Position numbers and translations under genes: made by a program. A DNA stretch of 64,000 nt from Streptomyces antibioticus (GTDB lineage Bacteria; Actinomycetota; Actinomycetes; Streptomycetales; Streptomycetaceae), in contig NZ_KQ948427.1 of NCBI RefSeq assembly GCF_001514065.1, forward strand, positions 298,474 to 362,473, read 5' to 3'. The notes under the pieces were generated by a model, which saw only the letters and a list, made by a program, of their open reading frames with translations, was not told the DNA's origin and did no database searches. This document shows positions 30,703 to 44,464 of this stretch, piece after piece (position 1 is the first letter of the stretch; each line of letters opens with the position of its first letter).

Positions 30703-31191
30703 TCAGACCGTCAGCCAGTCGGTGACGATCGCCTCCCTGCCGGTGCGCAGCCGCAGCGCGAAGGGCCCGGCGGGGGAACCGCCGTACGTGAAGCGCCCCA
30801 TGTCGTCGGTGGTCAGCGGGGCCCCGGTCTGCGGCCCGCTGAGCACCTCGACCGACGCCTGCTGGGGCGGCAGCACCTGCCCCATCAGGCCCTCCCCCGT
30901 GACCTCCACGTCCACGGTGACCTCACCCGCGCGGAAGGTCAGCATCCGCGGCACGTCCGTGGCCCCCCTGACGGGGATGGCGTCCACCACCGAGTCGAAG
31001 GTCAGCTCGGCGATCTTGGCGTCGAGGTCATGTAAGGCATAGGCCTCCACGGCGATCTGCCGCAGCTGGGCCGGTACCGGGTCGAGGATGCCGGCGGCCC
31101 TGCGGAGTTCCTCCTCCAGCAGGTCCGCATCGGCGTCCTGACCGTCGTAGGCCGCCTCGTCGAACGTCTCGTCGTCGTCCATCTCGTCCAT
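30703..31191 (-). CDS. acidic protein at the end of the sigma factor/protease operon
   Basis: A 162-residue protein. The first 30 residues are very acidic (MDEMDDDETFDEAA and onwards). A helical segment with LRQIAVEAYALHDLDAKIAEL follows, then a beta-rich C-terminal domain with a TTDDMGRFTYG turn like carboxypeptidase-regulatory (Ig-like) domains. No signal peptide. It begins nine bases after the sigma factor stop; the ATG at 31191 has GAGG upstream, and a GTG at 31203 overlaps that stop. Its place suggests a partner, inhibitor or protease target for the sigma factor, but no known anti-sigma motif is visible. Confidence 0.75.
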   Translation of the reverse strand: MDEMDDDETFDEAAYDGQDADADLLEEELRRAAGILDPVPAQLRQIAVEAYALHDLDAKIAELTFDSVVDAIPVRGATDVPRMLTFRAGEVTVDVEVTGEGLMGQVLPPQQASVEVLSGPQTGAPLTTDDMGRFTYGGSPAGPFALRLRTGREAIVTDWLTV

Positions 31192-31199
31192 CTCGTACC

Positions 31200-31838
31200 T
31201 CACACCGCCCCCCGTGCCTCGAGTCGGGCCCGCAGCCGGCGCAGACAGCGCTGGCGCAGCGGGCCGATGCTGCCCACCGCGATGCCCAGCGCGGCGGACA
31301 CCTCCTGGTAGCTCGGCGGCGGCGACGCCATCAGGATGCGCAGCAACTGCCTGCACCGGTCGCCGAGTTCCTCGAACTCCTGCCACAGATGCCGGACGCG
31401 TTCGCTCTCCACGGCCGCCTCCTCGGAGTCGAGGAGGGACTGCTCCGGCGTACGGTCCTCGCTGACCCGGTCGAGCAGCTGCGGATCGTCGGTGGGCGTC
31501 AGCCGCCTTAAGCTCTTCAGCACCTTCAGACACTCGTGCCGCGCGGTGCTGGCCAGCCACGAACCCGCCTTCTGCGGTTCCCGGATACGGCCGAGGTGCT
31601 GGGCGAAACGGAACCACACCGTCTGGTACACCTCGTGCGCGTCGGCGTCGCTCAGCCGGTGCGCGCGCACCACCGACCACACCAGTGGGCTCAGCCCCTC
31701 CACGAGCGCCTTCCAGGCCGCCGCGTCGCCGTCGACGGCTGACTGGACCAACGCGCCGACATCTGCTCGGTCCACGTCCCCACCCCTCGTGTACGGCAAG
31801 TCATCGTACGCCGTGGAGGGGGCGAGTTCGGCCCTCAT
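31200..31838 (-). CDS. ECF-type RNA polymerase sigma factor
   Basis: Up to 212 residues. Region 2 reads WSVVRAHRLSDADAHEVYQTVWFRFAQHL and the region 4 helix-turn-helix SYQEVSAALGIAVGSIGPLRQRCLRRL; both follow the ECF pattern (compare the DAEDVVQETF motif of the family). The ATG at 31838 overlaps the subtilase stop (ATGA); a GTG at 31775 behind GAGGGG is an equally good start. No membrane anti-sigma factor is linked, which is unusual; the neighbours are cytosolic proteases and an acidic protein. Confidence 0.88.
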   Translation of the reverse strand: MRAELAPSTAYDDLPYTRGGDVDRADVGALVQSAVDGDAAAWKALVEGLSPLVWSVVRAHRLSDADAHEVYQTVWFRFAQHLGRIREPQKAGSWLASTARHECLKVLKSLRRLTPTDDPQLLDRVSEDRTPEQSLLDSEEAAVESERVRHLWQEFEELGDRCRQLLRILMASPPPSYQEVSAALGIAVGSIGPLRQRCLRRLRARLEARGAV

Positions 31839-33265
31839 GCCCCAGGAGAGAGCTGTACGACCGTCCCCTGGCGCCAGGTGGGCGGAATGAGCGCCGGTAC
31901 GTGCGCCCCGCGCACTTCCGCGAACTCGGTGTTGGCGGCGAGCAGTTGCTTGCGCGCGGCCCGCGGGTCGGTCTCCTTGTTGGCGGTCATGTGGGCCGCG
32001 ACCAGGGCGGCGGCGGCCGGGGTGGCGAAGGAGGTGCCGCTCCAGTGCGCGTACCCGTCGAACATCACCTGGTCCGGCTTGGCGGAGCTGCCGTCGTCGC
32101 TCAGCACGCCCGTGTGGCGGGGGTGTTGGCAGGTGCAGAGGTAGGTGAAGTTGAAGCGGCAGGCGTCGTAGGTGGAGTGCTGGTAGACGTACGGGATCGG
32201 CGCGTCGAAGCCGGTGAGGGTGCTGGTGAGACGCTCGCCGGGGGCGTAGGCGTTGACCCAGGAGCCGTGGTTGCTGAAGCAGGCGCCGTGGTCGCCGTCG
32301 GTGCGCAGGGCGCCGATCGACAGGACGCTGTCCGCGTACTCGGGCAGGGAGGCGTAGGCGGCGGGCCAGAAGGGCGTCGCGCTGGCGTTGTTGCCGGCCG
32401 CGGCGACCAACAGGGTGCGCTGCTGCCGCAGTTCGCGCATGAAGGCGTCCACGCCGAGCAGGCCGTCGGTGCGGCCGTTGGAGGTGCCGGCGGAGAGGCT
32501 GATGATGTCCGGCCAGCCGTCCCGGTCGACGGCGGCGAACAGGGCCTCGCCGAAGTCGGATTCGAGGATCGCGCCGGCGTCGTTGAGGGTGTTGCGCACG
32601 GTGATGTTCGTGTTGGGCCCGACGGCCGCGACGATGCCCGCGATGAACGTGCCGTGCCCGACGTAGATCTTGAGGTTGCCCTGGTCGTCGGTCTCGGTGC
32701 CGTGCAGGTCGCCCTGGACGTGCGAGAGCAGCGGGACCAGCGTGTGGTCGTGGGTGAGGCCGTTGTCGATGACGAGGACGCCGACCGCGGTGCCGGTGTC
32801 GTAACCGGCCTCCGCGGGAGCCGGGTTGGTGCCGCCGGTGAGCGGGGCGGGCACCGGCTCGTCGCCGGGGCAGGAGTTGACGGCGATGGACACCACGTGG
32901 TTGCGGCTGACCAGCCGGCGTCCGGCGCGTCCCTCGGGTTCCCGCATCGCGCGCAGGGCGTTGGCGACGGCCCGGTCGGCGCGGCGGTCGCCGTGGCCGG
33001 GGTCGCCGACCTGGATGCGGGTGATGCCCGAGCGGTTGGTCTGCGGGCCCGCGCGGCGGACCTGGTCGCCGCTGAGGCCGGTCGCCGCGGTGAAGTGGTC
33101 GCGGACGGTGTTCTCGACGAGTGCCGCCTCCTCACCGTCCCGGGCGAGGACCACGCCCTTCTCGTAGATGAACTCGGCCGCGTCGTCCGGTCCCATCGCG
33201 AGGGGGACGTCGGGCATCGAGCGCTGGATCTGGTCGAACTGCTCCGGGAATCGCTGAGGTGCCAT
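31835..33265 (-). CDS. S8 subtilisin-like serine protease without signal peptide
   Basis: A 476-residue subtilase. The triad is Asp167 (VLVIDNG), His204 (GHGTFIAGIV) and Ser412 (GTSFATPAAAALVA), with oxyanion Asn in AAAGNN. The N-terminus is hydrophilic (MAPQRFPEQFDQIQ), so the protein appears cytosolic. About 150 residues precede the catalytic domain and could be a regulatory prodomain. The C-terminal part of the domain has an insertion with four Cys (YDACRF, LCTCQHP). ATG 33265 has GGGAGG upstream. It is divergent from the CHAT protease by 109 bases and overlaps the sigma factor gene. Confidence 0.9.
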   Translation of the reverse strand: MAPQRFPEQFDQIQRSMPDVPLAMGPDDAAEFIYEKGVVLARDGEEAALVENTVRDHFTAATGLSGDQVRRAGPQTNRSGITRIQVGDPGHGDRRADRAVANALRAMREPEGRAGRRLVSRNHVVSIAVNSCPGDEPVPAPLTGGTNPAPAEAGYDTGTAVGVLVIDNGLTHDHTLVPLLSHVQGDLHGTETDDQGNLKIYVGHGTFIAGIVAAVGPNTNITVRNTLNDAGAILESDFGEALFAAVDRDGWPDIISLSAGTSNGRTDGLLGVDAFMRELRQQRTLLVAAAGNNASATPFWPAAYASLPEYADSVLSIGALRTDGDHGACFSNHGSWVNAYAPGERLTSTLTGFDAPIPYVYQHSTYDACRFNFTYLCTCQHPRHTGVLSDDGSSAKPDQVMFDGYAHWSGTSFATPAAAALVAAHMTANKETDPRAARKQLLAANTEFAEVRGAHVPALIPPTWRQGTVVQLSPGA

Positions 33266-33338
33266 GGCGTGTCCTCCCACTTGAGCGACGGTCGTCAGTC
33301 AGAGTCTCGGGGCCATCGATTGATACAGCGCCAAACCT

Positions 33339-33349
33339 GTGTGGCACAC
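33339..33349. promoter_or_regulatory. short perfect inverted repeat in the subtilase/CHAT divergent promoter region
   Basis: GTGTGGCACAC has 5-base arms around one base and lies near the middle of the 109-base region between the two protease genes. A shared regulator could bind here; I see no clear -35/-10 pair. Confidence 0.3.
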
Positions 33350-33374
33350 GACCCGGAGCACTACCATCCGTTGA

Positions 33375-35981
33375 GTGACAGCGGGAAGCGAATCGGTTCT
33401 CGAACTGCTGCCCATGGTGTTCGCCGCGCCCAAGCAGGCGGTGGCGAGGGCAGAGGAAGTACTCGGCTCCGCTCCCTCACCGCTGCACGCCTCCGTGGCC
33501 CACCAGGTGATCGGCATCTGGCAGCGCGACTGGGGCGACATGAAGCTCGCCCTGCACCATCTGCGGCGCGCCCGCGATCTCGCCGTACGCGCCGAGTCGA
33601 CCGACCGCGAGGGCGACGTGCTGGCCGCGCTCGGCGTGGCGCTGGTGACCGCGGGCCGCACCCGGCAGGGCCTGGACGCGCTGGAGCGGGGCGTCACGGT
33701 GAGCAGCGGGCACACCCGCGCACGGGTGCTGTACCGGCGCGCCTACGCCTCATGGGTGCTCGGCCGGCACCGGGAGTCGCTGGAGGACGTACGCCGGGCG
33801 ATTCCCGTGCTGCGACAGATGGACGACGTGATCTGGACGGCGCGGGCGCTGACGCTGCGCGCGACCGTGCATCTGGCGGTCGGTGCGGTGGAGCGGGCCG
33901 AGGCGGACTTCGCGGCGGCCGAGTCGCTGTTCGACACCACGGGCCAGGAGCACGACAAGGCGGACGGGGTGGAGAGCCGGGGGCTGGCCGCGTTCCGGTC
34001 CGGCGACATCCCGGCGGCCCTGCGGCTGTTCGACGAGGCCGGGGACCGGTACGCCAAGCTCGACACGCCCTCGTTCATGCTCTACATCCGGCGCTGCGAG
34101 GTGCTGATGGCGGCCGGTCTCGCGCCGGAGGCGCTGGCCGAGGCGGACGCGGCGATCGCGGTGCTCGACGGGATCGGCGGACAGTCCACCCTCAAGGCCG
34201 AACTCCTGCTGGCGGCGGCGCGGGCGGCCCGTCGCGCGGGCGATCCGCACACCGCGATCGCGCGTGCGGCGCTCGCGGTGCGGCTGTTCGCCGCGCAGCG
34301 CCGGCCCTGGTGGGAGACGCACGCCCGGCTGGTGCTGGTCGAGGCGCGGCTCGCCGCCGGGCGCGGTTCGGGACGGCTGGTCGCCGACGCGGCCGAGGTC
34401 GCCGAACGGCTCGCCGGGTTCGGCGCGCCGGCCGCGCCGGAGGCGTCGCTGCTCGCGGGCCGGATCGCGCTGGGCCTGGGCTGGACGGCGGACGCGGAGC
34501 GGCATCTGGCCGTGGCCGCCCGCAGCCGGCACAGCGGTCCGCCGCTGGCGCGGATGACCGGCTGGGCGGCGCAGGCGCTGCGGGCCCGGGTCGCCGGGTC
34601 GCAGCGGGGTGTGCTGGAGGCCTGTCGCCGGGGCCTGGACGTGCTCGACGACCACCGGATGACACTGGGCGCCTCGGAGCTGCGGGCCCGGGCCACCGAA
34701 CAGGGCGCGGAACTGGCCGCGTTGGCGCAGCAGGCGAGCCTGGACTCCGGCAGCCCGCGCCGGCTGCTGGTGTGGAGCGAGCGCTGGCGGGCCACCGCAC
34801 TGTCGGCGCCGCCGACCCGCCCGCCGGCCGACCCGGCGCTGCTGGGCGACCTGACGGCGTTCCGGGAGATCGCGGCCCGCGCGGAGGCCGCCCGCATGGA
34901 GGGCCGGCCGATTCCGGCGCTGGAGCGTGAACAGCGGCGCCTGGAGCGGGAGATACGCGGCAGGACCCTGCACATCCGCGGGGACGCGCCGGGCTTCGGC
35001 AGCCGCTTCGACCCCGGCAGGCTGCTGAACCGCCTCGGGGACGACGTGCTGCTGGTCGAACTGGCCGTGCTCGACGGGCGTGTTCAGGTGCTGCTGTGCG
35101 GGCAGGGGCGGGTGCGGCGGTTCGAGGCCGGACTGCTCGCCGAGGCGGAGACCGAGGCGGAGCATGTGCAGGCCGGGCTGCGGCGGCTCGCCCACCCCGG
35201 GGCGGATGCGCGGCTGCCAGTGGTGGAGGCCATGGGCCGCCGTCTGGAGGAGCTGCTGCTCGGCCCGGCGGCGGCGCATCTCGGCTCCGGCCCGGTCGTG
35301 GTCGTACCGCCGGGCCGGCTGCACCGGGTGCCGTGGGCGCTGCTGCCGTCGCTGCGGGAGCGGGTGCTCAGTGTGTCGCCGTCGGCGAGCAGCTGGCTGC
35401 GGGCCCGCGAGACCGAGCCGCCGCCCGGGGGGCGCCAAGTGCTGGTGCGCGGGCCGGGGTTGGCGACCGAAGGCGCCGAAGTGCCCGAACTGGCGGGCCG
35501 CTACGGCGGATCGACGGTGCTGGAAGCGGACGAGGCGCGGGTGCCGAGGGTGTTGGAGGAGCTGGACGGGGCGGCGCTCGCGCACATCGCCGCGCACGGC
35601 ACCTTCCGGGCCGACAGCCCGCTGTTCTCCTCGCTGCGGATGGCCGACGGGCCGATCGTCGTGCACGACTTCGAACGCCTCGACCGCAGCCCGTACCGGA
35701 TCATCCTGTCCTGCTGCGACACCGCCCGTTTCGCCTCGGTCGGCGCGGACGAGCTGCTCGGCCTGGTCACCGCGCTGCTGCCGCTGGGCACGGCGGGCGT
35801 GGTGGCGTGCACCGCGCCGGTGAACGACGCGGCGGTGGTGCCGCTGATGCTCGCGCTGCACAAGGGGCTGAGCAGCGGGCTGTCCCTGGCGGAGGCGCTG
35901 CGCGACGCGCGGGCCGCGCTGCCGGGGGATGCGACGCATCAGGCGACGGGGTGGGCGTTCTCGGCGTTCGGCGCCGCATGA
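33375..35981 (+). CDS. TPR-CHAT protein: caspase-like protease with helical-repeat sensor region
   Basis: An 868-residue cytosolic protein. Residues 1 to about 500 are a chain of TPR-like helix pairs (for example HTRARVLYRRAYASWVLGRH and VHLAVGAVERAEADFAAAE). The C-terminal CHAT domain (about 570-868) has the caspase-type dyad: His741 in HIAAHGTFRA and Cys781 in ILSCCDT. CHAT proteases cleave protein targets when the repeat region is triggered. The GTG at 33375 is taken as start; ATG 33414 is an alternative. It is divergent from the subtilase-sigma operon and ends at a bidirectional hairpin. Confidence 0.9.
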   Translation: MTAGSESVLELLPMVFAAPKQAVARAEEVLGSAPSPLHASVAHQVIGIWQRDWGDMKLALHHLRRARDLAVRAESTDREGDVLAALGVALVTAGRTRQGLDALERGVTVSSGHTRARVLYRRAYASWVLGRHRESLEDVRRAIPVLRQMDDVIWTARALTLRATVHLAVGAVERAEADFAAAESLFDTTGQEHDKADGVESRGLAAFRSGDIPAALRLFDEAGDRYAKLDTPSFMLYIRRCEVLMAAGLAPEALAEADAAIAVLDGIGGQSTLKAELLLAAARAARRAGDPHTAIARAALAVRLFAAQRRPWWETHARLVLVEARLAAGRGSGRLVADAAEVAERLAGFGAPAAPEASLLAGRIALGLGWTADAERHLAVAARSRHSGPPLARMTGWAAQALRARVAGSQRGVLEACRRGLDVLDDHRMTLGASELRARATEQGAELAALAQQASLDSGSPRRLLVWSERWRATALSAPPTRPPADPALLGDLTAFREIAARAEAARMEGRPIPALEREQRRLEREIRGRTLHIRGDAPGFGSRFDPGRLLNRLGDDVLLVELAVLDGRVQVLLCGQGRVRRFEAGLLAEAETEAEHVQAGLRRLAHPGADARLPVVEAMGRRLEELLLGPAAAHLGSGPVVVVPPGRLHRVPWALLPSLRERVLSVSPSASSWLRARETEPPPGGRQVLVRGPGLATEGAEVPELAGRYGGSTVLEADEARVPRVLEELDGAALAHIAAHGTFRADSPLFSSLRMADGPIVVHDFERLDRSPYRIILSCCDTARFASVGADELLGLVTALLPLGTAGVVACTAPVNDAAVVPLMLALHKGLSSGLSLAEALRDARAALPGDATHQATGWAFSAFGAA

Positions 35982-35998
35982 GTGCGTACAGAGAGGTC

Positions 35999-36039
35999 GG
36001 CGGCCTGACCCCTCCCCCGATTACGGGGGTCAGACCGCC
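35999..36039. terminator. bidirectional hairpin between the CHAT and LuxR-type genes
   Basis: GGCGGCCTGACCCC pairs with GGGGTCAGACCGCC (13 of 14 bases) around a 13-base loop. It separates two convergent genes. Confidence 0.8.
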
Positions 36040-36054
36040 GGTCGGTGGGTCGGC

Positions 36055-37926
36055 TCAGGCCGACTGGGCGTCGGGCAGTTCCACCAGCCACGGCAGCGCG
36101 CCCCGGTCGTTCGCGCCGAGGCGGGCGTACGCGCTGTAGAGGTGGTTGCCGACGGTGCGGATGGACAGCGTCAGCTTCTCCGCGATCTGCCGGTTGCTCA
36201 GTCCGGCGGCGGCGAGCGTGACGATCTGCCGCTGACGGGCGGTGAGTTCACCGAGGACCAGCCCGGACAGGGCCGGGGTGCGGGCACCCTGGCAGCGGCG
36301 GGCGAGGGCGACCGCGCGGGTGCGTGAGGTGCGGGCGGCGCGTGGGTCGCGGTGGGCGCGCACGGCCTGTGCGTGCGCCTCGGCGGCGAACAGCAGGAAC
36401 CCACGCTCCTCCAGGCGCTCGGCGGCCCGGTCGAGCGCGGGACCGTCGTGGCGGGCGAGCGCGTCGGCGTGCTGCGCGAACACCTCGTCGCCCGGCAGCC
36501 GCCCGGTGGTCCGCCCGGGAGCACCGAGGCGTACGGCGTCGTAGCCGCCGTCCCCGACCGCCGCGAGCGCGGCGTCGAGATCCCCGCGCGCGGCGGCCAG
36601 CCAGGCGGCGGCGCGAGCGTCGGTCGCAGCCAGGTCGGCGTCGAGTTCGGCACGGCGGGGCGCGGCGCCGGAGTCCGCGCCGGTGCCGGAGTCCGCGCCG
36701 GTGCCGGCGTCGAAGACGGCCGTCTCCCCCGACTGCGCAGCCGCCAGAGCGAGTTCGGTACGGCAGGCCGGGTCGCCCGCCGTCTCCCGCAGTCCCTCCC
36801 TCGCCCAGGCCGCCGCCTCCCGCAGCTCTCCGCGCAGCCGCGCGAACCGCGCCCGCACCGCGGCGTAGCGGGCCGGGACCGGCTGCCCCTCCGCCACCAG
36901 CCACTCCCCCACCGGCGCGTCCGCGGCCCGTACGTCGGCCCGCTCGATCCTGGCCGCCAGCGCGGCGGCCTCCGCGGTCAGCGCCGCCGTGCACTGTTCC
37001 GGCCTGCGGGCCAGCCGCCGCGCCCGCAGCCTGCCGGCCGCGGCCCGCAGCACCGGGCCGTGCAGGGGGTGGGCGAGGCGTACGGCCCCGTCGTCGTCGA
37101 CGCGGACCAGTTCGTCGGCTTCGAGACGTTCGAGGGCGGGCAGGTCGAGCCCGTCCATGGGCAGCGGCAACGGCTCGGCGAACGCCAGGAGTTCGAGCGT
37201 CCCCCGGTCCGCGCACTCCAGGACCTGTGCCGTCTGTTCCCGCACGGTCGCCGTCACCGGCACCGGCCCCCGCCACGCCCAGTCGTCGGTACCGGGCAGC
37301 CGCGTGAACAGCCCGCCCTCGCGGACCGCACCGAGCAGATCGCGCAGCAGCCGCAGATCGCCGCGGCACAGCCGGTGCAGCCGGTTGACGGTGAGCGGCT
37401 CAAGACCGCCCCCGACACCGGCCGCGGCGAGCTGGGCGGTCTCCTCCTGCGGCAGCGGCTCCAGCACCAGGCGCGGCAGCAGCTCACCGGTCCACAGCCG
37501 GGAGACCGCCGAGGGCACGGCGGTGCCGTCGGTGGTGACGACCAGCAGCCGGGTACGGCCGTGCACGGCGAGCTGGTGGACGAGGGCGGCCGAGGCGTCG
37601 TCGAGCAGATGGGCGTCGTCGACCAGCAACAGCCTTACGGTGGAGAGGAGTTGGACCGCCCGGTGCAGGGACACCGTCTCGGGCAGCAGATGGGCGAACG
37701 CGGCGAACGGGATGTGCCGGGTCTCGGGCGTCCCGGCCACCCTGGCGCAGTCGGTGCCGCGGACGGCCTCCGTGACCAGCCGGGTCTTGCCGCTGCCCGC
37801 CGGGCCGGTGACCACGATGCCGTGGTGACCGGCCGACGACGACCGGCGGATCAGCTCGAGTTCGTCCTCCCGGCCGGTGAACGGCCAGGGCAGTTCCAGG
37901 GTTTTCGCGTCCCGTTCGAAAGTCAT
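36055..37926 (-). CDS. LuxR-family (LAL-type) regulator with ATPase domain
   Basis: A 623-residue regulator. The AAA-type ATPase has Walker A GPAGSGKTR near residue 40 and Walker B LLLVDDAHLLDD. A helical, Ala/Arg-rich middle follows, then a C-terminal LuxR helix-turn-helix ([20 protein letters not shown], then IAEKLTLSIRTVGNHLYSAY). It is shorter than typical LAL proteins (about 900 residues). An in-frame 18-base duplication encodes a repeated GTGADS. The ATG at 37926 follows TAGGTG; a GTG at 37953 is possible. It lies between the CHAT and metzincin genes and may sense a ligand and control them. Confidence 0.88.
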   Translation of the reverse strand: MTFERDAKTLELPWPFTGREDELELIRRSSSAGHHGIVVTGPAGSGKTRLVTEAVRGTDCARVAGTPETRHIPFAAFAHLLPETVSLHRAVQLLSTVRLLLVDDAHLLDDASAALVHQLAVHGRTRLLVVTTDGTAVPSAVSRLWTGELLPRLVLEPLPQEETAQLAAAGVGGGLEPLTVNRLHRLCRGDLRLLRDLLGAVREGGLFTRLPGTDDWAWRGPVPVTATVREQTAQVLECADRGTLELLAFAEPLPLPMDGLDLPALERLEADELVRVDDDGAVRLAHPLHGPVLRAAAGRLRARRLARRPEQCTAALTAEAAALAARIERADVRAADAPVGEWLVAEGQPVPARYAAVRARFARLRGELREAAAWAREGLRETAGDPACRTELALAAAQSGETAVFDAGTGADSGTGADSGAAPRRAELDADLAATDARAAAWLAAARGDLDAALAAVGDGGYDAVRLGAPGRTTGRLPGDEVFAQHADALARHDGPALDRAAERLEERGFLLFAAEAHAQAVRAHRDPRAARTSRTRAVALARRCQGARTPALSGLVLGELTARQRQIVTLAAAGLSNRQIAEKLTLSIRTVGNHLYSAYARLGANDRGALPWLVELPDAQSA

Positions 37927-37943
37927 CACACCTACAAGAGGCC

Positions 37944-37989
37944 GAGTACTCACTCCTGATACACGGGGACTTGAGTAGCCCTCGACTCA
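37944..37989. promoter_or_regulatory. GAGT/ACTC repeats between the LuxR-type and metzincin genes
   Basis: The 97-base divergent region holds a perfect GAGTACTC palindrome (37944-37951) and a TGAGT...ACTCA inverted repeat (37972-37976 and 37985-37989). They share the GAGT half site and could be two binding sites of one regulator, possibly the LuxR-type protein itself. Confidence 0.4.
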
Positions 37990-38023
37990 GGCGCCCGCAG
38001 GCGGCCGACGGCACTCTTGGCGC

Positions 38024-39109
38024 ATGGCTTCCCGCTACTGCTCCCTCGCGCAGCAGTCGGCCCCCGTCTTCACCCCGGGGTTGACCGCCGAGCGGCTGAG
38101 CGCGCTCGTCAGCGGGAGCCGGATGTGGGTCAACAACACCGTCCTGCACTACTACTTCTTCGACGGCGATTCGGACGCCTCGGTGATCGCGGTTCCCGGC
38201 AGCGGGGCGACCCGGCGGGTGTCGTGGGTCGGCGCGGAGGAGCAGCGGGACGTCGTACGGGAGTGTTTCCTGGAGTGGCAGGACCTCGGCATCGGTGTCA
38301 CGTTCGCCGAGGTGCGCGACCGTTCCGAGGCGGAACTGCGCATCGGGTTCCAGCTCGGTGACGGCTCCTGGTCCACGGTGGGCAAGGACGCCCTCCAGGT
38401 CGGACTGCACGAGCGCACCATGAACTTCGGGTGGGACCTGACCGCGCCGGGGGAGCGCGGGACGGCCCTGCACGAGATCGGGCACGCACTGGGCATGCAC
38501 CACGAGCACCAGAACCCGTTCGCCGGGATCCACTGGGACGACGAGGCCGTCTACGCCGAACTGGCGGGCCCGCCGAACTTCTGGACCCGGGACAAGACGT
38601 TCTTCAACATTCTGCGCAAGCTCGACAGCGCCGAGGTGAGCGGCTCCGCCTGGGACCCCCAGTCGATCATGGAGTATCCGTTCTCGGCGGGGCTGATCCT
38701 GGAGCCGGAGCAGTTCCGCGCGGGGCTGACCCCGCCCGGGACGCTCTCGCCCTCCGACAAGGAGTACGTCCAGCGCTGGTACCCGTCGGTCGGCCCCACA
38801 CTGCCGCCCGCGCTGGTGCCGTTCCGCTCGGCGCCGCTCGGGCTCGGCCCGGGCGAACAGGCGGACTTCACCGTCCTGCCGCCGGAGACCCGCGAGTACA
38901 GCGTGGGCACGTTCGGCGACAGCGACACCGTGGTCGTGGTCTTCGAGGAGCGGGACGGGGAACCCCGCTACCTCGCCGGCCAGGACGACGGGGGAACACC
39001 GCACAACGCCACCGTCAAGGCCCGTCTCGTCAAGGGCCGCCGCTACTTCGTCCGTGTGCGCCTGTACTCCGCGTGGGGTTCGGGGGAAACCGCGGTCATG
39101 TGCTGGTGA
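38024..39109 (+). CDS. metzincin zinc protease without signal peptide
   Basis: A 361-residue protein. The zinc site is HEIGHALGMHH starting at His150 (ligands His150, His154, His160, catalytic Glu151), and the Met-turn is SIMEYPF. This is the astacin/matrixin pattern. After about residue 255 comes a beta-sandwich like pre-peptidase C-terminal domains (GEQADFTVLPPETREYSVGT and the final SGETAVM). The N-terminus MASRYCSLAQQSAP is not a signal peptide, although this class is normally secreted. It is divergent from the LuxR-type regulator and followed by a long hairpin. Confidence 0.9.
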   Translation: MASRYCSLAQQSAPVFTPGLTAERLSALVSGSRMWVNNTVLHYYFFDGDSDASVIAVPGSGATRRVSWVGAEEQRDVVRECFLEWQDLGIGVTFAEVRDRSEAELRIGFQLGDGSWSTVGKDALQVGLHERTMNFGWDLTAPGERGTALHEIGHALGMHHEHQNPFAGIHWDDEAVYAELAGPPNFWTRDKTFFNILRKLDSAEVSGSAWDPQSIMEYPFSAGLILEPEQFRAGLTPPGTLSPSDKEYVQRWYPSVGPTLPPALVPFRSAPLGLGPGEQADFTVLPPETREYSVGTFGDSDTVVVVFEERDGEPRYLAGQDDGGTPHNATVKARLVKGRRYFVRVRLYSAWGSGETAVMCW

Positions 39110-39165
39110 CAGCACGTACGGACCGCACACGGGCGAGGCTGGACCACTGTCCGGCGCCGGGGGAA

Positions 39166-39213
39166 TGGCCGGTCGATCGTCGCCTTCGGGGGAGGGAGAC
39201 GATCGGCCGGCCA
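39166..39213 (+). terminator. long hairpin after the metzincin gene
   Basis: TGGCCGGTCGATCGTC and GACGATCGGCCGGCCA form a 16-base stem (one G-U pair in RNA) around a 16-base loop. It begins 57 bases after the metzincin stop and closes the protease cluster. Confidence 0.8.
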
Positions 39214-39539: not shown

Positions 39540-40673
39540 TCAGCTCGACTGGAAGGAGTGACCCCGCCTGCGCCACTCGGCGGCGAGCAGCTCGTAGGAG
39601 CGCACCCGGTCCGTGTGGTCGTGGGTGATGGTCGTGATGAGCAACTCGTCGGCCTCCGTGGCCTCCTGGAGCTGTTCCAGACGGTCCGCGACCGTGGCCG
39701 GTGAGCCGACGAACTGGGTGTCGAGGCGGTCCTGGACCAGTTCCTGGTCCGCCTCTGTCCAGGGGTGGGCGCGGGCCTCGTCCGGGGTCGGGAACTGGAT
39801 GGCGCCCTCCGCGGTGCGGATGCTGCGCACCCAGGGGCCGTAACCGGTGGCGAGTTCGCGTGCCGTGGCGTCGTCCTCGGCGACCACGACGTCGGCGGAG
39901 ACGCTGACGTAGGGCTTGTCGAGGACGTCGGACGGCTGGAAGAAGGACCGGTAGCCGTCGACGGCTTCCAGGACCGTCGCCGGGCTGACGTGGTAGTTCG
40001 CGGCGAAGCGCAGGCCCCGCGCGCCCGCGACCTCCGCGCTGGTCCCGCCGCTGCTGCCCAGGATCCACACCTCGACCTCGGCGCCCTCGCCCGGCACCAC
40101 ATGCGCCTCGACGCCGTCCAGGGTGCGGTAGGTGCCGGCCAGCAGGGCGAGGAGGTCGTCGATCTGCTCGGCGTACTCCTGCGATTCGGCGCCGGGGAGG
40201 AGGAGCAGCTTGCGCTGGAGGGCGATACGGGGTGAGCCCAGGAGGCGCTCGAAGGAGAAGCGGGGTGGGATGACCAGGCCGTTGGGGGCGTTTCCCGGAG
40301 CGGGCGGCTCGGCGGCCGGCTGTCCCGGCGGGCGGCCGCCCGAGCGGCCGACGCCCAGATCGAGGCGGCCCGGGTGCAGGGCGTCGAGGAGGCCGAACTC
40401 CTCCACGGTGTTCAGCGCGGTGCGGTGGCCGAGCTGTACGGCCCCGGAACCGAGCCGGATCGTGGAGGTCGCGGCAGCCGTCAGGGCGAGGACGACCGCC
40501 GGGGACGTACCGGCCACCCCGGGGTTGAGGTGGTGCTCGGCGAACCAGTAGCGGGCGTAGCCGAGTTGCTCGGCGCGCTGAGCGAGGTCGATGGAGTTGC
40601 GCAGCGCGTCGGCCGCCGTGGAGCCGCTGGAGATGGGCACCAGGTCGAGGATGCCGAGGGGGACGTCAGGCAT
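39540..40673 (-). CDS. LLM-class flavin-dependent oxidoreductase
   Basis: A 377-residue luciferase-like TIM-barrel enzyme. The N-terminal PLGILDLVPISSG, the FAEHHLNPGVAGTSPAVVLAL segment and LDLGVGRSGGRPP are typical of the single-component luciferase-like (MsnO8/alkanal-type) branch. The ATG at 40673 has GGAGG upstream and the gene overlaps the previous LLM gene by eight bases. It is the last gene of a four-gene run of flavin monooxygenases preceded by a sulfur-type leader peptide, which suggests oxidation of an organosulfur compound. Confidence 0.85.
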   Translation of the reverse strand: MPDVPLGILDLVPISSGSTAADALRNSIDLAQRAEQLGYARYWFAEHHLNPGVAGTSPAVVLALTAAATSTIRLGSGAVQLGHRTALNTVEEFGLLDALHPGRLDLGVGRSGGRPPGQPAAEPPAPGNAPNGLVIPPRFSFERLLGSPRIALQRKLLLLPGAESQEYAEQIDDLLALLAGTYRTLDGVEAHVVPGEGAEVEVWILGSSGGTSAEVAGARGLRFAANYHVSPATVLEAVDGYRSFFQPSDVLDKPYVSVSADVVVAEDDATARELATGYGPWVRSIRTAEGAIQFPTPDEARAHPWTEADQELVQDRLDTQFVGSPATVADRLEQLQEATEADELLITTITHDHTDRVRSYELLAAEWRRRGHSFQSS

Positions 40674-41739
40674 GGGTGGACTCCTCCCGTACGGGTCCCC
40701 ACGCGAACGGCGGGTCCGGGATGTCACGTCGGAGCACGGGGGCGACCTCGGACTGGAACAGCTCCAGAGAGTCCCGGTGCTGAGTGTCCGTCAGTCCCGC
40801 GGCGTCGGCGTGCAGATGGAGGACGGTGTGCCCGAACTGCTCGTGGTAGCGGTGCACCTTGTCGATGATCTGCTCGGGGCTGCCGATCAGGGCGGAGCTG
40901 CGCTCGACGAAGTCCTCCAGGGTCGAGAAGACTACGGGCAGGCCCGCCTTCTCGAAGAAGGCCGTGTTCGCCTCGAAGAGCGGCCGGTAGATGTCGAGTG
41001 CCTCCTGGGAGGTGCGGGTCACCAGGAGCCCCGCCGTCCCGGCCCCGATCGCGATGTCCGCGGGGTCGTGCCCGTAGTGCTCCCACCGCTCGCGGTAGTA
41101 CCGGATCAACTCGGCGTACGGCTCTATGGGGTTGGTGACGTTCGCCGAGAACAGCGGGTCGCCGTAGCGGGCGGCCAGGTCCACCGACTCCTTGCTGGTG
41201 GCGCTGCCGTGCCACACCCGGATCGGGTGCTGGTACGGCCGCGGCCACACCTCGGCGTCCTTCAGCGGCGGCCGGAAGCGGGTGTCGGCGGTGACCTTGT
41301 CCTGCCGCCAGATCTGCCGGAACACCTCGTAGCTCTCGGCGTTGCGGTCCCACTGGTCCTCGGGCGTGACCTGGAACAGCTCGCGCTGGGCGGCGCCGTT
41401 GCCCTTGCCGATGATCAGGTCGAGGCGGCCCTCGGAGAGGTGGTCGAGGGTGGCGTAGTCCTCGTAGGCGCGCACGGGGTCGAGCAGGCTGAGGGTGGTG
41501 ACCGCGGTGAACAGACGGATGCGCCGGGTCAGGGCGGCGATGTGGCTGAGGACGACGGTCGGCGAGGAGGAGATGAACGGCCGCTCGTGCCGCTCCCCCA
41601 CGCCGAACCCGTCGAAGCCCAGCTCCTCGGCCAGCACGGCGTTGTCGAGCACCTCGCGGAACCGCTCGTGCGTCGACTTGAGCACGCCGGTGACCGGGTC
41701 CGGTCGGTGCACGATCAGCGTGATCGCGAGGAACTTCAC
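40666..41739 (-). CDS. LLM-class flavin-dependent oxidoreductase
   Basis: A 357-residue luciferase-like monooxygenase. FLAITLIVH at the start, GFGVGERHERPFISSSPTVV, and the LDLIIGKGNG strand identify the alkanal/CE1758-type LLM branch. Start GTG 41739 overlaps the stop of the upstream gene (GTGA), so translation is coupled. The substrate is not readable from sequence; FMN or FMNH2 is the expected cofactor. Confidence 0.85.
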   Translation of the reverse strand: MKFLAITLIVHRPDPVTGVLKSTHERFREVLDNAVLAEELGFDGFGVGERHERPFISSSPTVVLSHIAALTRRIRLFTAVTTLSLLDPVRAYEDYATLDHLSEGRLDLIIGKGNGAAQRELFQVTPEDQWDRNAESYEVFRQIWRQDKVTADTRFRPPLKDAEVWPRPYQHPIRVWHGSATSKESVDLAARYGDPLFSANVTNPIEPYAELIRYYRERWEHYGHDPADIAIGAGTAGLLVTRTSQEALDIYRPLFEANTAFFEKAGLPVVFSTLEDFVERSSALIGSPEQIIDKVHRYHEQFGHTVLHLHADAAGLTDTQHRDSLELFQSEVAPVLRRDIPDPPFAWGPVREESTHA

Positions 41740-43109
41740 GACGCCGCCCGCTCGCCGCGCGCGTGGTCCGGGTGGGCAAGGCCCAGGTGGTCGCGCAGGG
41801 TGGTGCCCTCGTACTCGGTGCGGAAGACGCCCTGTTCCTGGAGGAGCGGGACGACCTTGTCGGCGAAGGTGTCGAGGCCGGTCGGGGTGATGTGCGGGAC
41901 GAGGATGAAGCCGTCGCTCGCGTCGGCCTGGACGTACTCGTTGATGGTCCTGGCGACGGTCTCCGGGGAGCCGACGAAGGTCTGCCGGTTGCCGGTGTTG
42001 ATGACCAGGTCGCGGATGGACCACTTGTTGGCGGCCGCCAGCTCGCGCCACTCGCGAGCGATGGCGAGCGGGTCGCGGTACATGCGGACCTGGGCGCGGC
42101 CCTTCGAGATGTGGTTGTCGCTGACATCGGGGTCGATGTCCGGGAGCGGTCCCTCCGGGTCGTACGAGGACAGGTCCCGGTTCCAGACGAACTCCAGGTG
42201 CTTGAGGGCGGTGGCGCCACTGACCTGCTGGCGGCGCACCTCCTTCGCCAGTTCCTCGGCCTCGGCGTCGGTGTCGCCCAGCGCGAAGGTGGCCGCTGGC
42301 AGGATCAGCAGGTCACCATGGCCGCGGCCGTGCTTCGCGAGGCGGTTCTTGACGTCCGTGTAGAAGGCCTGGCCCTCCTTCAGGGCGGCGTACCGGCTGA
42401 AGATGGCGTCGGCGGCGGAGGCGGCGAACTCGCGGCCCTCCTCGGAGTCGCCCGCCTGGAAGATCACCGGGCGGCCCTGCGGGGAGCGCGGGACGTTGAA
42501 CTGGCCGTGGATGTCGAAGTGTTGGCCGGTGTGGACGAAGGCGCCGGCCTTCGCGTCGCGCAGGAAGGTGCCGGTCTCCTGGTCGGCCACGATCTCGTCG
42601 CCGTGCCAGGAGTCGAAGAGCTCGGTCGCCGTGGCGAGGAACTCCTTGGCGCGGGAGTACCGCTCGTCCTGCGGGAGGAAGCCGCCGCGGCGGAAGTTCT
42701 CACCGGTGAAGGCGTCCCAGGAGGTGACCACGTTCCAGGCGGAGCGGCCGCCGGAGAGGTGGTCGAGGCTGGCGAACTGGCGGGCCACCTCGTAGGGCTC
42801 GTTGAAGGTGGAGTTGATGGTGCCGGTCAGGCCGAGGTGCTCGGTGACGGCGGCGAGCGCGGCGAGGACCGTGAAGGTGTCGGGGCGTCCGACGACGTCC
42901 AAGTCGTATATCTTCCCGCCCTGTTCGCGGAGCCTGAGGCCTTCGGCGAGGAACAGGAAGTCGAACTTGGCGCGCTCGGCGGTCCGCGCGAAGTGGGCGA
43001 AGGAGCTGAACTCGATGTGGCTGCCGGCCTCGGGGTCGCTCCACACGGTGGTGTTGTTGACGCCCGGGAAGTGGGCGGCCAGATGGATCTGCTTCAGCGG
43101 CTTGGTCAT
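41736..43109 (-). CDS. NtaA/SnaA/DszA-type FMN-dependent monooxygenase
   Basis: A 457-residue enzyme of the nitrilotriacetate/pristinamycin/dibenzothiophene-sulfone monooxygenase family. Family blocks are visible: QIHLAAHFPGVNNTTVW, FARTAERAKFDFLFLAEG, NEPYEVARQFASLDHLSGGR, AWNVVTSWD and the GRPVIFQAGDSEEGREFAA segment. Such enzymes cleave C-S or C-N bonds using FMNH2 from a separate reductase. It is the second gene of the leader-peptide-controlled operon. A role in releasing sulfur from organosulfur compounds fits, but a C-N substrate is not excluded. Confidence 0.9.
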   Translation of the reverse strand: MTKPLKQIHLAAHFPGVNNTTVWSDPEAGSHIEFSSFAHFARTAERAKFDFLFLAEGLRLREQGGKIYDLDVVGRPDTFTVLAALAAVTEHLGLTGTINSTFNEPYEVARQFASLDHLSGGRSAWNVVTSWDAFTGENFRRGGFLPQDERYSRAKEFLATATELFDSWHGDEIVADQETGTFLRDAKAGAFVHTGQHFDIHGQFNVPRSPQGRPVIFQAGDSEEGREFAASAADAIFSRYAALKEGQAFYTDVKNRLAKHGRGHGDLLILPAATFALGDTDAEAEELAKEVRRQQVSGATALKHLEFVWNRDLSSYDPEGPLPDIDPDVSDNHISKGRAQVRMYRDPLAIAREWRELAAANKWSIRDLVINTGNRQTFVGSPETVARTINEYVQADASDGFILVPHITPTGLDTFADKVVPLLQEQGVFRTEYEGTTLRDHLGLAHPDHARGERAAS

Positions 43110-43130
43110 GGCTTCTGCGTCCTTCGCGTC

Positions 43131-44315
43131 TCAGGCGGCGGCGTAGCGGTTGGCGGGGCGGGCGAGGCCCAGCAGTCCGCGCAGGGTGTCGGCCTCGTAG
43201 GCCTGCCGGAAGGCGTCTCGGCGCTGGAGTTCGGGGACCAGGCCGCGGGTGATGGCCGGCAGGTCGTGGCCGAGGACGGCGGGCCGCAGCCGGAACCCGG
43301 TCAGGCCGGCCGCCTGCAACTCCTGGAGCAGATCGGCGAGTTGGGCGGGGGTACCGGCGAAGATGCGCGCGTCGCTCTCGTACGGCTCCCCCGCCGCCTC
43401 GTCGAGGCGCTCCCGGCGGGCCGTGGCCGCCGCGGGGTCGTCGTCGAGGAAGACCACCAGGTCGCCGAAGACGTGCAGAGGCTCCTGAGCGCGGCCCGCC
43501 GTCCCCTGCTCGGCGCGGATCTCCGCGACGATCTCGCGGGCGTGCTCGGCGTCGCGCGGCGTCACGTAACCGACGTCGGCCTGGCGGGCCACCAGCCGGT
43601 AGGGCACGGTCTGGTGGGCGAGGGCCGTGACGAGGGGCTGGCCCTGCGGCGGGCGCGGGGTGATGGACGGGCCCTTGACGCTGAAGTGGCGGCCCTCGAA
43701 GTCGATGTAGTGGAGCTTGTCGCGGTCGATGAAACGGCCGGTGGCGGCGTCCCTGATCTCGGCGTCGTCCTCCCAGCTGTCCCAGAGCCGGCGGACGACC
43801 TCGACGTAGTCGGCGGCCTCGTCGAAGAGGTCGGTCACCACCGGGCTGTCGTAGGCCTCGATGCGCGGGATCGTGCGGCGGCCGAAGTGGTCGGCCTCGT
43901 GGGGGCGGGCGGTGATCTGGACGCGGACGCCCGCGCGGCCGGTGCTCACGTAGTCCAGCGTGGCGATCGCCTTGGAGAGGTGGAACGGCTCGGTGTGGGT
44001 GACGACCGCGGTCGGGACCAGGCCGATGTGCCGGGTCAGCGGCGCGATGCGGGCGGCGAGGAGCACGGCGTCGACGCGGCCGCGGACCTGGTCGGTGCGG
44101 TCGTCCGGCGCCAGGTGGTGGGAGGACTGGAGGCCGAGGCCGTCCTCGAACGTGACGAAGTCGAGCAGTCCGCGCTCGGCCTCGGCGACCAGGTCGGCCC
44201 AGTAGGCGGCGGTGAACAGCTCCCGGGGGCGGGCGACCGGCTCACGCCAGGAGGCGGGGTGCCAGCCGGTGCCGTCGAGGGCGACTGCGAGATGCAACGG
44301 GGATGAAGGGGACAC
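43131..44315 (-). CDS. NtaA/DszA-type LLM monooxygenase
   Basis: A 394-residue luciferase-like protein. LHLAVALDGTGWHPASWRE, FVTFEDGLGLQ, KAIATLDYVSTGRAGVRVQI and LTGFRLRPAV are the family blocks found in monooxygenases of sulfur-scavenging loci. The GTG at 44315 has AGGAAGG upstream. It is the first structural gene after the leader peptide at 44396-44464 and starts 21 bases before the next gene's region ends, so the four LLM genes form one unit. Confidence 0.85.
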   Translation of the reverse strand: MSPSSPLHLAVALDGTGWHPASWREPVARPRELFTAAYWADLVAEAERGLLDFVTFEDGLGLQSSHHLAPDDRTDQVRGRVDAVLLAARIAPLTRHIGLVPTAVVTHTEPFHLSKAIATLDYVSTGRAGVRVQITARPHEADHFGRRTIPRIEAYDSPVVTDLFDEAADYVEVVRRLWDSWEDDAEIRDAATGRFIDRDKLHYIDFEGRHFSVKGPSITPRPPQGQPLVTALAHQTVPYRLVARQADVGYVTPRDAEHAREIVAEIRAEQGTAGRAQEPLHVFGDLVVFLDDDPAAATARRERLDEAAGEPYESDARIFAGTPAQLADLLQELQAAGLTGFRLRPAVLGHDLPAITRGLVPELQRRDAFRQAYEADTLRGLLGLARPANRYAAA

Positions 44316-44395
44316 GAGGGGTGCCTTCCTGGAGGTCCGTACGAGAACACCGGCCCGGGCACAGGGCGCGCGGGGCACAGCGGGGTGAAAACGGG

Positions 44396-44464
44396 TCAGG
44401 GGCGACAGAGAGCGCCGGCGACGCGCTGGAGGTCGATGTGCAGGCGGAGGTAGGGGATACACAC
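44396..44464 (-). CDS. leader peptide 1 (HIDLxRV type), upstream of the LLM operon
   Basis: A 22-residue sORF starting with GTG at 44464 behind GGGAGG: MCIPYLRLHIDLQRVAGALC then RP and stop. The core H-I-D-L-Q-R-V-x-G-A-L-C matches the putative leader peptides found ahead of sulfur-assimilation genes in Streptomyces. The stop is 80 bases before the first LLM gene. It shares a 22-base identical stretch (44420-44441) with leader 3 at 49602-49623. Confidence 0.8.
   Translation of the reverse strand: MCIPYLRLHIDLQRVAGALCRP

Follow-up and report, generated by a model that had tools for sequence, protein, structure and literature searches.

A four-gene subtilase, sigma factor, acidic protein and TPR-CHAT protease module of Streptomyces, and a predicted promoter signature common to its operon and the antibiotic repressor gene absR2

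The window considered here, a stretch of 64,000 nucleotides (nt) from Streptomyces antibioticus (assembly GCF_001514065.1, contig NZ_KQ948427.1, positions 298,474 to 362,473 of the forward strand), carries genes for an S8 subtilase, an extracytoplasmic function (ECF)-type sigma factor, a small acidic protein and a tetratricopeptide repeat (TPR)-CHAT caspase-like protease, and beside them genes for a large ATP-binding LuxR-type (LAL) regulator and a metzincin corresponding to AbsR2 and AbsR1. A first-pass annotation of the same DNA had read this block as one regulated system with a transcriptional output. That reading is well supported by the co-occurrence of the genes and by a signature common to the operon and absR2, the output itself being deduced from the DNA alone. 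The features of the locus are the following.

30703..31203, minus strand: acidic protein gene, 166 residues; start at GTG 31203 or at an ATG four codons inside; candidate soluble anti-sigma factor or protease substrate.
31200..31838, minus strand: ECF-type sigma factor, 212 residues; ECF54-like by gene context; TIGR02937 at 68 bits.
31835..33280, minus strand: S8 subtilase; GTG start, the ATG at 33265 being likelier; Asp/His/Ser triad intact.
33302..33327, minus strand: predicted promoter of the S8-sigma-acidic operon, TGTATCA-N16-CTC, from intergenic alignment.
33375..35981, plus strand: TPR-CHAT caspase-like protease, 868 residues; divergent from the S8 operon.
36055..37953, minus strand: AbsR2, a LAL repressor of the SCO6993 type; likely true start at ATG 37926; NF050132.
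37938..37963, minus strand: predicted promoter of absR2, TGTATCA-N16-CTC, from intergenic alignment.
38024..39109, plus strand: AbsR1, a myroilysin-like M12A metzincin of the SCO6992 type; intact zinc motif; NF050131.

The six genes lie where the first-pass annotation had placed them, and their catalytic residues are intact: D172/H209/S417 in the subtilase (167/204/412 if numbered from the ATG), H741/C781 in the CHAT protease, and HEIGHALGMHH at residue 150, with the Met-turn SIMEY, in the metzincin. Across nine aligned S8 and eight aligned CHAT sequences, with relatives at 27-48% identity, the catalytic residues of both proteases never vary. All Pfam scores exceed the cut-offs (CHAT 97 bits, TPR_12 33, Peptidase_S8 70, Sigma70_r2 39.5, GerE 47.5 in the LAL regulator, Astacin 32 in the metzincin), and the sigma factor also passes TIGR02937 over residues 41-206 (68.1 bits against a cut-off of 42.9), with no region-4 match in the Pfam scan. 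The subtilase carries about 150 residues ahead of its catalytic part and no evident signal peptide; indeed, none of the six proteins shows an N-terminal hydrophobic stretch by a crude test (the highest Kyte-Doolittle mean over 19 residues within the N-terminal 60 is 1.19), in agreement with the earlier view that the three proteases lack signal peptides. The operon had been described by its ATGA overlap, which holds for S8 and sigma, the overlap of sigma and acidic genes being GTGA; the 109 nt described between this operon and CHAT are recovered when counted from the S8 ATG.

To examine how these genes travel together, we used one draw of 246 Streptomyces genomes for every count, searching for S8 at E <= 1e-60 and for the C-terminal 250 residues of CHAT at E <= 1e-30. 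S8 was found in 80 genomes, CHAT in 80, both in 79 and neither in 165; in the two single-gene genomes (G001 and G176) the gene lies at a contig edge. Counting these two, 81 genomes were classed as module-bearing and 165 as module-free on S8 and CHAT, sigma and acidic genes being scored beside S8 only. At the 79 loci chosen by S8, sigma occurs in 79, the acidic gene in 79, CHAT in 78, LAL in 67 and the metzincin in 61, each in a single orientation relative to S8. The core of the locus is four genes: the S8 subtilase, the ECF-type sigma factor, the acidic protein and TPR-CHAT. The comparison of Streptomyces neighbourhoods that the first-pass annotation had proposed thus shows the four kept together, with S8 and CHAT jointly present or absent, rather than scattered and never co-occurring. 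In seven genomes (G214, G219, G160, G239, G157, G224 and G116) the CHAT domain matches in two pieces with no stop between them, and seems to hold an insert of about 20-200 residues near its start.

Part of this joint presence is synteny, since isocitrate dehydrogenase and FGase genes flank the block in 73 of the 79 loci each. Moreover, a single deletion can remove several neighbouring genes, so that joint presence is no proof of joint function. In a gyrB tree covering 70 genomes, 33 carrying the module and 37 lacking it, module state changes 10 times, with at least 6 of the changes on supported branches, whereas shuffled labels need 23.6; the module is therefore clustered yet patchy.

Loci from other actinobacterial families extend the picture. 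S8, sigma and acidic genes stand together in 17 of 20 loci fetched, the remaining three being unlinked S8 genes. The 17 span five families, 12 of them coming from a single one (f3). A profile search found CHAT in 15 of the 17; in L116 and L133 it was matched by BLAST, running past the end of the stretch. CHAT lies mostly downstream in the same direction, and is divergent from S8 in L114, L115 and L117. The aligned members are 27-36% (S8), 39-46% (sigma) and 35-48% (CHAT) identical to those of the window, and at such distances it is probably selection rather than recent synteny that holds the four genes together. Neither absR1 nor absR2 was found in the 20 distant loci.

The LAL regulator and the metzincin were not recognized in the first-pass annotation as the published AbsR2/AbsR1 pair, which is tied to antibiotic control. 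The metzincin passes the AbsR1 equivalog NF050131 (722 bits, cut-off 650) and the LAL regulator the AbsR2 equivalog NF050132 (1038 bits, cut-off 850); by these sequence matches they are the orthologues of SCO6992 and SCO6993, respectively. The NF050132 match begins at residue 10, which places the LAL start probably at ATG 37926. By gene order and annotation, the S. coelicolor counterparts of S8 and sigma would be SCO6995 ("putative intracellular serine protease" in the published annotation) and SCO6996 ("sigma factor"), respectively. Overexpression of SCO6995 was stated, as data not shown in the source, to lower antibiotic output in that species, and AbsR2 represses actII-ORF4 and redD there (PMC9628970). 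AbsR1 orthologues (at least 68% identity) occur in 67 of the 246 genomes, all 67 module-bearing; six weaker matches (51-58%), one of them in a module-free genome, were taken as paralogues.

Three intact proteases had been announced at this locus. The residues are indeed intact, and the metzincin, with a complete zinc site and Met-turn, is homologous to the solved metalloprotease myroilysin (E about 1e-31). This does not establish three active proteases, since the S. coelicolor relative of AbsR1, assayed as a maltose-binding protein fusion produced in E. coli JM109, the lane for the vector being negative, showed no protease activity on milk or azocasein and was active as a beta-glucuronidase (PMC9705864). 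NCBIfam labels AbsR1 a beta-glucuronidase despite its homology to myroilysin. The pair of S. coelicolor resembles that of the window in the opposite orientation of its two genes and in the same TGTATCA box before SCO6993. It differs in how it has been treated, the literature available handling the pair without the adjacent protease-sigma module: the portions of PMC9705864 consulted do not mention SCO6994-SCO6996, nor those of PMC9628970 SCO6994.

Intergenic alignments (S8-CHAT, the window plus 78 loci; AbsR2-AbsR1, the window plus 61 loci) revealed the same arrangement before both transcripts, with TGTATCA on the operon strand and CTC after exactly 16 nt. Before S8 the box TGTATCA is present in 79/79 and strict TGTATCA-N16-CTC in 77/79; before absR2 the figures are 62/62 and 61/62. 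We infer that this signature is a promoter read by the sigma factor of the module, and its presence before both operon and absR2 suggests, at the level of sequence, that absR2 is tied to the module. With ATG 37926 as start, the absR2 transcript would likely be near-leaderless. The deletion primer printed in PMC9628970 contains TGTATCA upstream of SCO6993 of S. coelicolor, and the annotated start codon of that gene falls within the predicted spacer.

The genome of the window (10.1 Mb) holds four strict sites, two of them at this locus, and none for the reversed control. The third lies within a polyketide synthase-like gene (named by eye). At the site L135 (C5:600156), a GAF-GAF-HisKA_3 histidine-kinase gene, a possible further target, has its ATG 8 nt after the CTC. 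Genomes with S8 carry on average 3.09 strict sites (n=80), against 0.98 in those without (n=166, including G001; Mann-Whitney p 1.5e-26), an excess of about the two local sites, hence a small regulon. A large regulon was rejected, sites outside the locus being near background except at the RNA loci described below; across the 246 genomes the reversed control is not zero outside the genome of the window, so that single sites elsewhere carry little meaning. A strict site occurs in 79 of 80 named Streptomyces loci, many likely of the same species as the 246-genome set, and 63 of the loci have two or more. When the distant loci were searched with a relaxed form (TGTATC, spacer 14-18), it was found ahead of the operon in 10 of the 17, nine of them in family f3, with a spacing of 16 in seven of the ten; six other matches occur in 666 kb of strand-positions.

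The signature also led to a candidate small RNA. Among 20 extra sites inspected, 11 are intergenic, with a run of ACGGGGGA-like repeats and a strong hairpin after the site; the other nine are unlike these loci, some lying in or before ordinary genes. A search coupling the signature (spacer 15-17) to GGGGGA-rich DNA matched 47 of the 246 genomes, all among the 81 module-bearing ones: 10 at the S8 promoter itself only, and 37 elsewhere, at what we call RNA loci. RNA loci thus occur in 37/81 module genomes and 0/165 module-free genomes, with a reversed control of 0 throughout (hypergeometric 1.3e-21, kinship ignored). The spacer is 16 in all 37, and the number of GGGGGA units ranges from 1 to 12. 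At eight of them the position is the same, 3' of a SigE-like gene, and many others lie near convergent genes that, like the SigE-like one, were named by eye and resemble sugar hydrolases. The loci of family f3 carry GGGGGA-rich DNA in cis, after the signature and upstream of S8; L118, of family f2, does not. Rfam gave no match in the window block, in 9 of the 37 RNA loci or in five distant loci. From their sequence, these intergenic loci are predicted to be transcribed as small RNAs.

The repeats by themselves were rejected as a mark of the module, ACGGGGGA triples being found in 129/246 genomes with and without it; only the signature-coupled form is tied to the module. In the 30 loci read (L238-L267), arrays of at least three ACGGGGGA repeats at short spacing, for which the reversed control found almost none, mostly lacked a TGTATCA box and often had a stop codon on one side and a strong inverted repeat on the other. 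They resemble a Streptomyces element that is widespread and comes in several subtypes; no description of it is known to us, though no literature search was aimed at it.

The fourth core component, the acidic protein, has an acidic N-terminus, two helices and a beta-sandwich resembling CarboxypepD_reg, a family whose model is far under cut-off in two members and is matched at E <= 1 by 10 of 12 members (best E 0.0015). Its conserved layout comprises DPVP, a helix with a FxWRxxDAELAxL-like stretch, and a C-terminal sandwich with GRFxxxxxPAGP. The structure model places helices at 22-39 and 45-66 (block pLDDT 68-74, down to 50 past residue 60) and eight strands in 86-160 (block pLDDT 78-96; pLDDT, predicted local distance difference test). 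Given its position beside sigma and the analogy with Craspase, this protein would be both an anti-sigma factor and a protease substrate.

Craspase, of type III-E CRISPR systems (Cas7-11, Csx29, Csx30, CASP-sigma), provides the experimental precedent: Csx29, Csx30 and CASP-sigma form a protease, sigma-inhibitor and sigma switch in which the CHAT protease acts on the inhibitor (PMC10028731). The likeness is one of composition, a TPR-CHAT protein, a small partner and an ECF-like sigma factor in one locus, and of kind, a TPR-CHAT protease with a small ECF-sigma-binding protein and release through cleavage. The differences are the additional S8 subtilase of our locus and an acidic protein without sequence relation to any solved chain. 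Over residues 747-837, the CHAT profile matches chains of solved structure that bear the name "CHAT domain protein" (E about 0.005), presumably Csx29 of Craspase. No CRISPR-like repeat was detected in window positions 22000-48000, and no Cas gene among the 10 neighbours scanned.

We therefore propose, at about even chances of being right, a CRISPR-free protease/anti-sigma/sigma switch of the Craspase kind, whose output runs through AbsR2 and the RNA. The acidic protein would hold the sigma factor until a signal sensed by the TPR part switches CHAT on; active CHAT would then cut the acidic protein, directly or via S8. The freed sigma factor would raise S8, more sigma and AbsR2, reading TGTATCA-N16-CTC and thereby feeding itself, absR2 and the RNA, and AbsR2 would then keep antibiotic production down. 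AbsR2 is named as output on the strength of the signature found here and of its published repression of actII-ORF4 and redD. A stronger version, which we hold to be rather unlikely, would make the GGGGGA-repeat RNA a dedicated part of the switch, driven by sigma and serving as ligand, sponge or feedback signal for TPR-CHAT or the acidic protein, with AbsR2 as output, in a CRISPR-free Craspase counterpart with a cleavable small inhibitor.

Several observations weigh against the proposed switch. The model of the acidic protein is moderate (mean pLDDT 75; predicted template modelling score 0.49), its family profile matches none of the PDB chains up to E 5, hence not Csx30 at the sequence level, and neither its binding to sigma nor its cleavage is demonstrated in the literature examined. 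The match between CHAT and Csx29 is weak. The signature is missing upstream of S8 in 7 of the 17 distant loci, and nine of its ten carriers belong to one family. The 37 RNA loci cluster in few shared chromosomal places and hence are not 37 independent events; a test of RNA against module on independent pairs, underpowered, gave on average 1.4 pairs the same way, 0 opposite and 4.6 without difference. Finally, the coupled-pattern search found no RNA locus of this form in the window's own genome.

The competitor that fares best comes from the ECF54 literature, a context absent from the first-pass annotation which the gene neighbourhood fits. Carboxypeptidase, subtilase and CHAT genes are the neighbours of ECF54 factors according to a review (PMC8999054, which cites Casas-Pastor et al. 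2021 and Huang et al. 2015), so that the association of sigma, subtilase and CHAT is already in print. Section 3.3 of that paper proposes direct proteolysis of the sigma factor, without an anti-sigma factor, a further point against our switch: the proteases would keep sigma low, and the acidic protein would be an adaptor or substrate presenter. This is possible, if on the unlikely side. In its favour, none of the anti-sigma families in the libraries scanned resembles the acidic protein; however, the acidic gene adjoins sigma in the same 96 of the 99 Streptomyces and distant loci where sigma occurs, the usual place of a cognate anti-sigma gene, and the CHAT protease of Craspase acts on a sigma inhibitor (PMC10028731). 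The two contexts are alike in an actinobacterial ECF-type sigma factor with subtilase, CHAT and "carboxypeptidase" partners and in proposed proteolytic control. They differ in that the "carboxypeptidase" here is a small acidic protein with a carboxypeptidase-regulatory-like sandwich only, and in the promoter signature, AbsR2 link and RNA added here, the likeness itself resting on gene context. The open-access literature searched reports no promoter, target or RNA for a context of the ECF54 type.

Alternatively, some DNA-binding protein could use the signature as its operator, or a different sigma factor could use it as a promoter, in which case absR2 and the RNA would be co-regulated by something else. 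The absR2 box does overlap an inverted repeat, TACTCA/TGAGTA, AbsR2 binds its own promoter region (PMC9628970), and AdpA is reported to control SCO6995. We nonetheless judge this explanation unlikely, because three features speak against it: two boxes in one orientation always 16 nt apart, the restriction of the RNA sites to module genomes, and the same arrangement ahead of the operon in other families.

TPR-CHAT proteins act in conflict and cell-death systems, and a phage-defence or cell-death role with CHAT and S8 as effectors had to be considered, the first-pass annotation having suggested a candidate conflict or stress system. For S8, PADLOC gave only a generic subtilase model, and over the helix-turn-helix region of the LAL regulator it matched two CARF models. 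PHROGs linked S8 to a family of phage proteases (E 1e-25) and the sigma factor to one of phage sigma factors (E 5e-7), matches expected from the broad families to which both belong. CHAT was matched partially, and in two records only, in PLSDB. None of these searches gave anything specific to defence, the chromosomal place beside isocitrate dehydrogenase is stable, and the partners are tied to antibiotic control; we rejected the defence reading as a candidate and consider it improbable. Least probable of all is that absR1 and absR2 are mere syntenic neighbours of an independent four-gene module, as their absence from the distant loci, the lack of LAL in 12 of the 79 loci and of the metzincin in 18 (some cut by contig ends), and the synteny of the region might suggest, given the signature upstream of absR2 in 61/62 and the restriction of AbsR1 orthologues to module genomes (67/67).

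Outside the block, four consecutive luciferase-like monooxygenase open reading frames (Pfam Bac_luciferase; window 39540-44462) adjoin it, with GNAT and solute-binding protein genes next to them.

What is new here is the common promoter-like signature, AbsR2 as a predicted target, and the candidate RNA. The ECF54 context, for which PMC8999054 offers neighbourhood evidence only, gains with them a candidate promoter, a named target in AbsR2 and an RNA partner. If the proposed switch is true, the absR region would be tied to a specific signalling system, and the control of sigma factors through release by TPR-CHAT proteases may be a mechanism general to bacteria and not peculiar to CRISPR.

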